The notes beneath the pieces were generated by a model that saw nothing but the letters and a program-made list of their open reading frames with translations, ran no database searches and had not been told where the DNA came from. A stretch of DNA of 64,000 nucleotides from Actinomycetes bacterium. Lineage in GTDB: Bacteria; Actinomycetota; Actinomycetes; Actinomycetales; Dermatophilaceae. Positions 49,951 to 53,623 of the stretch are shown here, in pieces; within the stretch, counting starts at the first letter, position 1; every line of letters begins with the position of its first letter. A program made the position numbers and the translations under genes. The stretch is taken from NCBI GenBank assembly GCA_029552065.1, contig JAKPEG010000087.1, forward strand, positions 1 to 64,000, in the 5' to 3' direction.

Positions 49951-50796
49951 TCAGCCCTGCTGCGGGGACGGCTCGGGGGCCGGGACGGGCGTCTCGAGCA
50001 CGGCGAGGTCGCGCTCGGCGAACTGACGGTGCCACCACTCCTCGTTGAGGATCGTCTCGAGGCACCGCAGCACGGCATAGCTGCGCGGCTCCGGCCAACC
50101 GGGTGCCTCGACGGGGGTCGTCTGCGCGGCGAGCTCCTGGTCGGTGAGCCTGGCGAGATAGTCGCCCACCCGGTCCATCCGGTCTAGGCGCAAGGCGAGC
50201 GCCTCGTCGAGCGTGGGACGCGCCGCTCGATCGCGTGGCACTCCGGGGGTGTCGGGCATCTGGTCCCAGGGCAGACTCAACGGCTGCCACGGGGCGGGGT
50301 CGCCGAGAACGGCACGCAGCAGCCAGCATTCGGTGGCGAAGGCCAGGTGGCGCAGCGTCTCGATGAACGACCACTCCCCGTCGACCTGCACGTGCAAGAG
50401 CGCGGGGTCCAACGCTCGGGCCCGTGCGACGGTCTCCGCCCACAGCCGGGTGTTGACCTCCCACGCCTCCCGGAAACCGCCAGGATCCCGCGGGTGCAGG
50501 AGCGCCCGCTCGGGATGACGGCGGGTCAGCTCGGCTTCGACCAGCGGCATGACATCGACCCCGTTCACGACGAGCACCTCGATGTCGCCGGACACCTCCA
50601 GTCGCGAGGTGTAGATGCCGCGGAACGCGGCGCCACTGAGGTCGGCCTCGCGGACCCGCACGTCGCGCAAGTAGACCGTGTCGAAGTCTGCCCCCGAGAG
50701 GTCGACCTCTCGGAATCGAGATCCGGGCATCCGGCGCTGGACGAACTCGACGGGGGCGCCCGATTCGGGCGTGGCGGCGGCGTCGGACTGCGTCAT
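49951..50796 (-). CDS. Pentapeptide-repeat plus DinB-like domain protein
   Basis: 281 aa. Residues 22-65 contain pentapeptide-type repeats (FREVDLSGADFDTVYL, ADLSGAAFRGIY). The C-terminal 200 residues form a DinB/MDMPI-like four-helix bundle with VDGEWSFIETLRHLAFATECWL near 142 and LNEEWWHRQFAERDL near 250 (possible metal His). DinB-like proteins of actinomycetes are often thiol-dependent transferases. It is 42 bp downstream of the sucrase/ferredoxin-like gene on the same strand, so it might belong to the peptide operon. Confidence 0.88.
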   Translation of the reverse strand: MTQSDAAATPESGAPVEFVQRRMPGSRFREVDLSGADFDTVYLRDVRVREADLSGAAFRGIYTSRLEVSGDIEVLVVNGVDVMPLVEAELTRRHPERALLHPRDPGGFREAWEVNTRLWAETVARARALDPALLHVQVDGEWSFIETLRHLAFATECWLLRAVLGDPAPWQPLSLPWDQMPDTPGVPRDRAARPTLDEALALRLDRMDRVGDYLARLTDQELAAQTTPVEAPGWPEPRSYAVLRCLETILNEEWWHRQFAERDLAVLETPVPAPEPSPQQG

Positions 50797-50838: not shown

Positions 50839-51765
50839 TCACGAGGACGGTGTCGGACTCAGGCGGACGAGGTCCCAGGAGAGCGACGGCTGGGCGCGGT
50901 CGGCGTGACAGGTGAGGCGGACCGGCGCACTTCGCCGGGCACGGACGACGACTTCCCAACGACGGCTGGCGGCGGCGAAGGTGCTTGTCCACGTGTCCGA
51001 TTCGCGGCGACGCGTCCGCAGCTCGACGCCGTCGAGGCCGAGCAGCCCCAACTCCGTCCGCAGCGCGATCTCCGCGGCCTGGACCGGCATCGGCCAGAAC
51101 GCCCGGCCACGGAGGTGGTCGAGGTCGACCCGCCTGGCTCGGTGTGTCTCGGCCACGGAGACGACCGTCTCGGGATCCAGTCGTCCGTAACAGAGCCCGC
51201 CGTCGAGCACGAGCAGGTTCGCCGCGAACCGGTCGCCGCCGAGGTGCGAGGCCTGCCAGGTCGCCTCGGGCTCGACGGCGGCAAGGGCAGCCGCGACCGG
51301 TCGGCCGCGCTCCGCGCAGCAGACGTCGTGCCGGCCCTGCGTGCAGACGGCGAAGACCGGGCCCGGCTCGGGGTCGAGGCCGACCGATCGACCCGCCCGC
51401 AGCCCGAGGAGGTCGAGGTCGAGGACCGCCCGTGGATCACCGACGCTCGACGTCTCGACGAAGCCGTCCCGCGGATGGACGTATGCCGCGAAGACCCGCC
51501 GGTGGGTGGGCACGGCCGAGCCAGTCGCACGGGCGCGGAAGTGCCCCGGGTCCTGGCGGCGGATGAGCAACGGTCGCACCCGAGCCTCGGCGCACCGGCG
51601 CAGGATCTCGTGGCCGAGACCGTCCGGCAGCCGGGCGTCGCGGAGGGCCTTCACCCCCCACGGTCCGGCGTCCTCGAGCAGGAGGAATGCCTTCGCGGGC
51701 GAGGCGGTCCCGGCCAACGGATCCCCACGCTCCAGTGATCTCGCCGAACATCTCTCGGCGCTCAC
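50839..51765 (-). CDS. Sucrase/ferredoxin-like Fe-S protein
   Basis: 308 aa, thioredoxin-like [2Fe-2S] family (Suc_Fer-like). Cysteines: Cys6 (SAERCSA), Cys142 in VCTQGRHDVCC with Cys149-Cys150, and HLGGDRFAANLLVLDGG near 178, the family hallmark. The first part also has KAFLLLEDAGPWGVKAL. Members are thought to carry electrons. The GTG overlaps the stop of the JmjC-like hydroxylase (GTGA), so it probably serves that enzyme. Third gene of the peptide-hydroxylase operon. Confidence 0.88.
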   Translation of the reverse strand: MSAERCSARSLERGDPLAGTASPAKAFLLLEDAGPWGVKALRDARLPDGLGHEILRRCAEARVRPLLIRRQDPGHFRARATGSAVPTHRRVFAAYVHPRDGFVETSSVGDPRAVLDLDLLGLRAGRSVGLDPEPGPVFAVCTQGRHDVCCAERGRPVAAALAAVEPEATWQASHLGGDRFAANLLVLDGGLCYGRLDPETVVSVAETHRARRVDLDHLRGRAFWPMPVQAAEIALRTELGLLGLDGVELRTRRRESDTWTSTFAAASRRWEVVVRARRSAPVRLTCHADRAQPSLSWDLVRLSPTPSS

Positions 51766-52886
51766 GCGACGACCTGGAGGAGACCCTCACGGACGAGTCT
51801 GCGGCACAACACGAGTCGGCTCTGTGCGTCGAGCAGGTCGGCCAGGTCGCCGGGAGTGAGGCGGCTGGCGCGGCATACCTGCTCGAGCGCGGGACGCAGC
51901 CAGCCGGGCACGGTGAGAACGCGGTCCCCGAGCAGGAGGTCCAGTCGGTCGCCGGTGTCGCGCAGGACACACGGGTGCCCGGGCCGCCGCGCGAGGGGCG
52001 TCTCGTCGTCAAGGGTCGCGAGAGCCGCGCGGTCGAGCAGCCCACCGCCGAGTCGCGACGGTCGGGTGGCGAGAACCCGCCGGACCTCGGCCTCGACGGC
52101 GGCGGCCGGATCGATCGCGCGGACCCGCTCGGCGAGATCCGTGAGGGCGGCGGCGAGCATCGTCACGGTCCTGGCCGGGTCGTGGGTGAAGCCGGCCGGT
52201 AAGTGGGTGTCGGGGACGTCGGCGAGCACGCTGCGGACGGTCCGCTGGACGAGGCCCCGCACGGTGAGCTGGTTGAGGCCGATGGTCACGTGCAACGAGA
52301 GCTCGTCCTGGGTCCGGGCCGCGTGCCGTGTGCCGGTCGGCAGGTAGAGGCTGAGTCCTGGTTCGAGGACGAGCGACTCGACGCCGGCGGCCGTGTGCAG
52401 CTCCCACTGCTTGCGCCCATGGGTCTGCACGACGATGACGTGGTGAGTGTCGGCGTGGACGGCGAAGCCCTGCGCACCGGGCGGCGTGAGATAGGCGTTG
52501 GCCTGACACGGATGGCCCAGCTCGGCCTCGAGCTCGGCGACGAGGGCCGTGAGCGGCGGCCAATACCGTTGCAGTCCCTGGAAGACGACGGTCGCGCCCT
52601 CGTCGTGCAGGGCCAGGACCTTGCGCCCGTCGACGAGACCGGTCACCGCAGCGCCCGCGAGGGTCGCCCGAGCCGTGTATGCCGCCTCCGGCACGATCGC
52701 GCCGTCGCGGACCACCCGCACGGCAGGCGTGCGGATGGCGGAGGCGGTGAGCAGGTGGTCGGCGTCGGCGAGGGTCAACAGGGCCGAGAGGGCCTGCGCG
52801 TCGCCGCGGTGGAGGTGCACCGACGTCGCCCAGACCTCCCGGCGGAAGGCCTGGGCGTCGCCGGTGAGCAGGTCGAGGGCGCTCAG
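51762..52886 (-). CDS. JmjC/cupin_4-domain hydroxylase (RoxA/YcfD-like)
   Basis: Fe(II)/2-oxoglutarate oxygenase type, about 374 aa. The iron triad is visible as HADTHH near 143-145 (His-x-Asp) and the His of GTRHAAR near 187. The N-terminus LSALDLLTGDAQAFRREVWA and VHLHRGDAQALSALLTLADADHLLT matches the cupin_4 family. The first ATG/GTG (GTG 52820) would remove the conserved N-terminus. The only start keeping it is CTG at 52886, overlapping the peptide stop as CTGA like the operon's other NTGA junctions. Relatives hydroxylate residues in ribosomal proteins or peptides; the adjacent Asp-repeat peptide is a likely substrate. Confidence 0.85.
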   Translation of the reverse strand: MSALDLLTGDAQAFRREVWATSVHLHRGDAQALSALLTLADADHLLTASAIRTPAVRVVRDGAIVPEAAYTARATLAGAAVTGLVDGRKVLALHDEGATVVFQGLQRYWPPLTALVAELEAELGHPCQANAYLTPPGAQGFAVHADTHHVIVVQTHGRKQWELHTAAGVESLVLEPGLSLYLPTGTRHAARTQDELSLHVTIGLNQLTVRGLVQRTVRSVLADVPDTHLPAGFTHDPARTVTMLAAALTDLAERVRAIDPAAAVEAEVRRVLATRPSRLGGGLLDRAALATLDDETPLARRPGHPCVLRDTGDRLDLLLGDRVLTVPGWLRPALEQVCRASRLTPGDLADLLDAQSRLVLCRRLVREGLLQVVA

Positions 52887-53098
52887 GCGTCGGTCCCGTC
52901 TGCGTCGTGTCCGTCGGCGCCGTCTGCGTCTGCGCCGTCGGCGTCTGCGCTGTCGGTGCCGTCTGCGTCTGCGCTGTCGGTGCCGTCTGTGTCGTGTCCG
53001 TCGGTGCCGTCTGCGTCGGTGAGCGCTCCGACCGCCTCACCGAGGTCCGAAGTGCTCATCATGTCGTCGCTCAGCGGGCCATCCGGCGTGGTCGTCAT
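52883..53098 (-). CDS. Asp-repeat small peptide, candidate RiPP precursor (71 aa)
   Basis: The ATG at 53098 has AGGAGG 5 bp upstream. Residues 1-26 are a mixed leader (DDMMSTSDLGEAVGALTD). Residues 27-71 are built almost only of Asp, Gly, Ala, Thr, Ser and His: units such as DGTDSADA occur twice, then DGADADGADGHDADGTDA. Asp is nearly every second to third residue, and there is no Lys, Arg, Cys or aromatic residue in this part. Its stop overlaps the start region of a JmjC-type hydroxylase. The design (short leader plus repetitive core beside tailoring enzymes) fits a ribosomal peptide precursor; a Ca2+- or iron-binding peptide is an alternative. Confidence 0.75.
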   Translation of the reverse strand: MTTTPDGPLSDDMMSTSDLGEAVGALTDADGTDGHDTDGTDSADADGTDSADADGADADGADGHDADGTDA

Positions 53099-53215
53099 TG
53101 CTGCCTCCTGTGGTGGTCTCGCCGGCGGTCGATCCGACCGGCTCGGCCAGTCTGCCTCGCTCGCGGGCCCGCTCGGGGCTTTGTCCGCCGCGAACCATGT
53201 CCGAGGCGTCGCGGA

Positions 53216-53623
53216 TCAGCGATGGCGGATCCGGTGCGGGGTGTTGACCTTGTCCGGCGTGACGACGAGGATCACCCGACCCTGGGATCCCACCGGATTG
53301 CCGTAGTCGACACCGAGGTAGCGGCGTGACAGCTCGTCGATGTGCGTGCGGGCCCGCTCGCCGGTGATCGTTTCGGTGACCCGGCCGCGGACTTCGGCCC
53401 AGTCCCACGGGTCGTTCGCGCCGAGGATCAGCACGGTGATCCGAGGATCGCGGGCGACGTTGCGCGCTCTCTGCCGCTGCGGCTCCGTGTTGACGAGCAG
53501 GTGTTCGCCGTCCGAGTCGATCCAGGTCGGCAGTGCCTGCAGGCTGCCATCGGGCATGACGGTGACGACCGTCGCGAGGTTCGGTCCCGTGGCGAGACGA
53601 TGGGCGTCGGGGTCGAGAGCCAT
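53216..53623 (-). CDS. PPOX-class F420/flavin-dependent protein
   Basis: 135 aa, split-barrel: GPNLATVVTVMPDGSLQALPTWIDSDGEHLLVNT, then RARNVARDPRITVLILGANDPWDWAEVRG and YLGVDYG near 104. Such proteins reduce biliverdin, quinones or enones with F420H2 or FMN. It sits 117 bp upstream of the Asp-repeat peptide on the same strand and may be independent. Confidence 0.9.
   Translation of the reverse strand: MALDPDAHRLATGPNLATVVTVMPDGSLQALPTWIDSDGEHLLVNTEPQRQRARNVARDPRITVLILGANDPWDWAEVRGRVTETITGERARTHIDELSRRYLGVDYGNPVGSQGRVILVVTPDKVNTPHRIRHR

Follow-up and report, generated by a model that had tools for sequence, protein, structure and literature searches.

Three overlapping genes lie on the minus strand of the window, the 64,000-nucleotide stretch of DNA that was analyzed; in order, they encode an Asp-repeat peptide, a JmjC_2 (PF08007) oxygenase and a Suc_Fer-like (PF06999) protein, and all their features described below are on this strand. 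The peptide gene (52883-53098) codes for 71 amino acids, MTTTPDGPLSDDMMSTSDLGEAVGALTDADGTDGHDTDGTDSADADGTDSADADGADADGADGHDADGTDA, and is identified as a precursor gene by its open reading frame, its ribosome-binding site and the existence of homologous peptides. It begins with ATG, five bases after a perfect Shine-Dalgarno sequence, AGGAGG (53104-53109), which bears out the strong ribosome site claimed in an earlier reading made from the DNA letters (the sequence-only reading). The oxygenase gene (51762-52886) would encode 374 amino acids. A standard ORF caller placed its start at GTG 52820, 22 codons late; homologues start with CTG, TTG, GTG or ATG (loci L003, L006, L005 and L008) at the position aligned with a CTG in the window, which suggests that the enzyme probably starts at this CTG, at 52886, overlapping the peptide stop. 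The Suc_Fer gene (50839-51765) starts with GTG and encodes 308 amino acids. The overlaps are of four bases each, CTGA between peptide and JmjC and GTGA between JmjC and Suc_Fer; both they and the positions of the three reading frames are as the sequence-only reading had placed them. Since the peptide gene overlaps the enzyme gene, their translation is probably coupled. The peptide gene is preceded, at a distance of 117 bases and on the same strand, by a gene (53216-53623) for an F420-dependent PPOX-class oxidoreductase (TIGR03618, 4.7e-29); this neighbor showed no conservation among the loci of relatives. Downstream of the three genes, at 49951-50796, there is a DinB_2 protein whose N-terminus carries a pentapeptide-repeat stretch.

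The second protein matched the PF08007 model (E 5e-17, 62 bits against a cut-off of 22) and is a ribosomal-oxygenase-type Fe(II)/2-oxoglutarate enzyme. The HAD...H iron triad previously noticed in it is present: HAD (H144-D146; 52449-52457) provides the first two members of the facial triad that binds Fe(II), and H188 (52323-52325) is the distal ligand. The H-x-D...H triad and the 2-oxoglutarate Lys were invariant in the 43 sequences compared. The nearest solved proteins by sequence were NO66 and MINA53 (1e-23), and the enzyme model matched NO66, MINA53 and YcfD over its whole length (Foldseek E 1e-25; VIA Z 26, 368 residues, rmsd 5.9). The C-terminal part of NO66-type proteins is a winged helix. 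In the window enzyme, the C-terminal winged helix (approximately residues 296-374; 51765-52001) is predicted from a homologue model and a deletion to be a leader-binding domain resembling a RiPP recognition element (RRE).

The third protein, a thioredoxin-like ferredoxin, was confirmed as Suc_Fer-like by its match to PF06999 (E 2.5e-13, 51 bits against a cut-off of 34.9) and by its adjacency to the JmjC gene. Its motif CTQGRHDVCC (residues 141-150; 51316-51345), already singled out by the sequence-only reading, is conserved in nine homologues, with C, GRHD and CC invariant. The motif GGDRFA appears to have an Asp at a position where one might expect a His ligand. From its co-occurrence with the oxygenase, the protein may be a [2Fe-2S]-type redox partner; nothing found here supported the earlier proposal that it supplies the oxygenase with electrons.

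To see how far this arrangement extends, 99 loci including the window were assembled by JmjC similarity alone: 17 came from a scan of named genomes, and 80 of the 86 enzyme-positive genomes were fetched with approximately 6 kb on each side. The enzyme was present in 86 of the 395 genomes searched from the class of the window (about one in five). An Asp/Gly-repeat peptide stood directly upstream of the JmjC gene in 87 of the 99 loci as counted by script, and in 90 when three recognized by eye are added (L057, L082 and L093). The identical criterion, an Asp-rich short ORF ending near the enzyme start, was satisfied elsewhere in those loci by 2 of 7662 ORFs; it was set after the family had been seen, and the gap is very wide. 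Suc_Fer followed directly downstream in 81 of the 99 loci and was missing in 17, and one further locus (L017) is cut by the contig end at the Suc_Fer position. Several of the 17 keep the peptide, so there is no strict need for Suc_Fer, which also turns up in genomes that do not carry the JmjC gene. The neighborhood search proposed with the sequence-only reading therefore found short Asp-rich peptides ahead of the JmjC genes as a rule, and neither of the outcomes named there as contrary, JmjC/Suc_Fer pairs consistently lacking a peptide or repeats not conserved in relatives, was encountered. The observation is real and extends well beyond the window. In other classes of Actinomycetota, genomes with Suc_Fer and the enzyme also carry such peptides (L130-L143). 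More distant relatives of the enzyme (L094, L127, L128 and L129), which serve as a natural control, are not accompanied by an Asp-repeat peptide. By eye, the JmjC relative in L128 lies downstream of a radical SAM/SPASM-like gene and that in L127 downstream of a YcaO-like gene. The order of the trio recurs on plasmid p057_I of Nostoc sp. C057 (L151:2536-5180), where a 46-amino-acid ORF is followed by a cupin and by a gene annotated as sucrase ferredoxin; the ORF ends in NWSGGEGDDNA, which is not an Asp repeat. In loci L025 and L032, a second copy of Suc_Fer precedes the cassette in the same orientation.

No further conserved neighbor, whether transporter, protease, exporter or another family, was found among the loci, and a larger gene cluster with a transporter or protease was ruled out. 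A link to a defense system was rejected, as PADLOC gave no match. The assembly that contains the window is 88% complete and 6.3% contaminated, in 239 contigs. In the tree, the window enzyme clusters with enzymes from Nocardioidaceae, and the other main enzyme group is the one found in five genomes of the window's own family (L102, L106, L116, L122 and L124). This grouping could stem from horizontal transfer or from a misbinned contig; either origin leaves the finding unaffected. In two of these genomes (L102 and L106), the JmjC gene has no adjacent Suc_Fer and is directly preceded by another acidic peptide with the conserved end DDPEL.GADL.EDQ..G.GPT.EPGA.

The peptides have the layout of RiPP-type precursors, a short gene with a conserved leader and a variable core, in the same 87 to 90 loci. 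None matched a Pfam or NCBIfam model. The leader motif common to them is [LVI]xDD[DE][IM]xT, which in the window is LSDDMMST (residues 9-16; 53051-53074), assigned from the motif count and from docking in the homologue L014. The pattern [LVI]x[DNE][DEAS]..[IML]x[TS] occurred in 66 of 98 precursors, where shuffled sequences would be expected to give 0.28, so the comparison of leaders for a recognition motif that had been suggested did yield one. The core of the window peptide (residues 28-71; 52886-53017) consists of Asp-rich DGTDSADA-type units encoded by an imperfect 24-bp tandem array that occurs at a single place in the genome. Repeat number differs between species, and two core types track two enzyme clades. 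Cores of the window group are of the DADGTDG type, with 390 of 397 Asp-Asp spacings equal to 2 or 3 residues; those of the second group are of the EGPADGGAxGxPGxHDGGADGGA type, with Asp mostly every 4 residues. Overall, the precursors are 30% Gly, 22% Asp and 15% Ala, Lys and Arg are rare, Cys does not occur, and Phe and Trp are essentially absent. In locus L118, an ORF upstream of the JmjC gene (-554 to -182) encodes a Cys-containing precursor-like peptide, MAETKTLKMDEIQVETAPAADPQFLICDPDPSDDCWIVCNPNYCY.

Imperfect tandem-repeat DNA in a GC-rich genome could in principle be read as a translated low-complexity stretch and not as a gene. This explanation is highly improbable, because position, leader, ribosome-binding site and purifying selection are conserved across the phylum, and a low-complexity artefact was ruled out on the grounds of conservation, position and selection. 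The codon differences between seven close peptide pairs amounted to 119 synonymous and 30 non-synonymous changes, which shows the repeat core to be under purifying selection. The pair L006/L007 (9 synonymous and 46 non-synonymous) was excluded from this count because the two peptides are unequal in length and out of register. Taken together, the conservation of the peptide, the repeats, the leader and Suc_Fer supports the earlier suggestion that the trio is one peptide-modification cassette.

The way in which the leader might meet the enzyme is suggested by locus L014, where the peptide stop and the enzyme start share one reading frame; the TGA was read as Gly, which gives a natural peptide-enzyme fusion. 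In an AlphaFold2 model of this fusion, leader residues 11-20 had a pLDDT of 96, residues 18-20 formed a short strand, and the core was for the most part below 50. When the last 83 residues, that is, the winged helix, were removed, the pLDDT of residues 11-20 fell to 41 and the catalytic domain was unchanged. These values come from one homologue with a tethered peptide and with no contact list, and pLDDT is not a measure of binding. An RRE is a winged helix of three strands followed by three helices that binds the leader as an added strand. The corresponding region of the L014 model has strands at 398-402, 405-409 and 414-418, and helices at 419-430, around 436 (a short one) and at 444-456; the partner of the leader strand 18-20 is not visible in the model. 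The loss of confidence upon deletion suggests that the winged helix is probably the docking site of the leader, acting as a built-in RRE. The distribution of the two elements is compatible with such a role: leader motif and intact winged helix occurred together in 65 cases, both were missing in 18, the leader motif adjoined a degenerate winged helix in 5, and the reverse combination was found in none. The winged helix is thus degenerate in the enzymes beside all 18 precursors that lack the leader motif, and intact beside none of them. This correlation is suggestive only, because it reflects approximately three changes on the tree, and an independent-contrast test was dropped since the independent events were too few.

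A leader predicted to bind the winged helix would also be expected of a peptide that is bound and never modified, an acidic partner or regulatory subunit that activates the enzyme or buffers metal and delivers Fe or Ca. The Asp-rich repeats could bind cations, the cassette has neither exporter nor protease, and repetitive acidic peptides could have a role outside RiPP biosynthesis. We nevertheless consider this unlikely, because a short leader and a variable-copy repeat core beside a catalytically intact oxygenase is the usual RiPP layout, and JmjC enzymes such as BipG and PbsQ do modify RiPP precursors.

The reading that we prefer, to which we assign a probability of about 0.62, is that the three genes form a minimal RiPP-type cassette in which the leader docks on the winged helix, the JmjC enzyme hydroxylates the core repeatedly and Suc_Fer assists. 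The putative precursor, with its leader motif and multi-repeat Asp/Gly/Ala/Thr core, is encoded directly before the enzyme. Its leader would then dock on the winged helix at the C-terminus of the JmjC protein, acting as an RRE, as structure prediction supports. Judging from the enzyme family and the catalytic residues, the Fe(II)/2-oxoglutarate center would hydroxylate core residues one after another, with the beta-carbon of Asp as the most likely site and His as a less likely one. Suc_Fer, placed here by co-occurrence, may keep the oxygenase iron reduced or act on the hydroxylated peptide. The product would be a peptide with several hydroxylated residues. The cassette lacks genes for an exporter, a protease or immunity, so the peptide is just as likely to serve inside the cell, or in housekeeping, as to be secreted.

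Asp hydroxylation is plausible because Asp is the sole reactive residue common to all cores. It is also found in the peptides of more distant JmjC enzymes, such as the one on a Streptomyces clavuligerus plasmid (...ADNDPSDPPIAIADPDPFDPVI) and that of L118 (...ICDPDPSDDCWIV). ROX enzymes are known to hydroxylate His and Arg, not Asp, and for this reason the residue is one that we infer. His, or some other residue, could be the target as in NO66 and MINA53, with Asp providing merely a flexible acidic context: the solved proteins nearest to the enzyme hydroxylate His, two His residues occur in the window core, and 39 of 57 second-group precursors have His in their last 40 residues, typically within GHDGGADG. 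However, His is absent from the last 40 residues in 24 of 30 window-group precursors and in the other 18 of the second group, although their enzymes are equally conserved, and several cores are wholly free of His. A His target is, on balance, improbable.

Asp hydroxylation would open a further possibility, since beta-hydroxy-Asp serves siderophores as a ligand for iron. The product could be a ribosomal metallophore, an iron-binding beta-hydroxy-Asp peptide with Suc_Fer as its ferric reductase. In four Micropruina loci (L008, L011, L012 and L015), genes for FTR1-like and/or FecCD-like permeases, recognized by eye, flank the cassette. Such a system would be expected to be iron-regulated and to travel with transport genes, but iron-transport neighbors were found nowhere outside Micropruina and no transporter is conserved. 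When the 350 bp upstream were searched with an IdeR-type 19-bp consensus, the best matches had 3 and 6 mismatches; the former, in L011, is the one weak case of an IdeR/DtxR box, and iron regulation was therefore rejected as a general feature. The metal-binding product imagined in the sequence-only reading finds no backing in these results, and a metallophore is a poorer candidate than either an unmodified partner or a His-hydroxylated peptide.

The preferred reading can be extended, more tentatively and at somewhat less than even odds, to a phylum-wide RiPP class in which an RRE-bearing JmjC enzyme of the ribosomal-oxygenase type, served by its own Suc_Fer redox partner, processively turns a multi-repeat Asp/Gly core into a poly-(beta-hydroxyaspartyl) peptide. 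If this is true, ribosomal oxygenases are tied to the biosynthesis of peptide natural products. If the peptides are hydroxylated, they constitute a very common and so far unseen class of modified peptides, and ribosomal oxygenases would gain a natural substrate, a peptide whose leader is genetically linked. RREs and the winged helix of NO66/YcfD-type enzymes may also have more in common than a fold.

Other JmjC genes were seen in similar company. A RiPP-like cassette on the Streptomyces clavuligerus plasmid NZ_CP065235.1 (L149:2772-4167) consists of a peptide, MDDKKTSLEPDEIEVIPPVSTPDFVIADNDPSDPPIAIADPDPFDPVI, and then a cupin, after which come an S9 peptidase on the opposite strand and an ABC transporter. 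On other Streptomyces plasmids (L154, L155 and also L150), a short ORF, a cupin, an aldo/keto reductase and a hypothetical protein keep a constant order, possibly as a further JmjC peptide cassette. A full-text literature search with the core motifs returned no relevant paper; overlap is possible with Xia et al. 2025 (J Am Chem Soc 147:26693), which reportedly concerns macrocyclization by alpha-ketoglutarate-dependent dioxygenases in RiPPs. The trio looks like an undescribed and widespread peptide-modification system of Actinomycetota; its architecture is established by the sequences, and its chemistry, electron transfer and final function are what we infer.

Several known systems share parts of it. 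The JmjC/cupin hydroxylases BipG, BpmG and PbsQ hydroxylate ornithine in biphenomycin RiPP precursors (PMC12707348, PMC12257519), a JmjC-type Fe/2OG modification of a precursor residue like the one proposed here; their target, however, is ornithine, they act after other enzymes and belong to a large cluster, and neither Asp repeats nor Suc_Fer are involved. Beta-hydroxy-Asp is formed in a RiPP precursor by the MNIO pair PesHI of the pes (nitrilobacillin) cluster (PMC13060819), the modification suggested here for the core, but these are multinuclear iron enzymes of a different family and act at a single site. Apd1 binds a [2Fe-2S] cluster in a thioredoxin-like ferredoxin domain and is of unknown function (PMC11126956); the window protein shares the PF06999 domain and conserved Cys/His with such proteins and differs in being tied to a JmjC enzyme and a peptide. 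The survey of Bregman et al. 2025 (PMC12710340) noted that some PF08007 proteins have a fused RRE-like fold and that bacterial homologues occur in RiPP-like contexts. That fold joined to PF08007 is what the window enzyme is predicted to have, although the survey devotes one sentence to the fusions and describes neither a precursor, a leader motif and a repeat core nor a partner of the Suc_Fer kind. The closest likeness in the enzyme itself is to NO66, MINA53 and YcfD, with which it shares the catalytic triad, the 2OG Lys, the dimerization region and the C-terminal winged helix. Whereas those PF08007 proteins act on His or Arg of ribosomal proteins, the window enzyme is encoded beside its own repeat peptide and a Suc_Fer gene, and the adjacent peptide argues that it may have a substrate other than a ribosomal protein.
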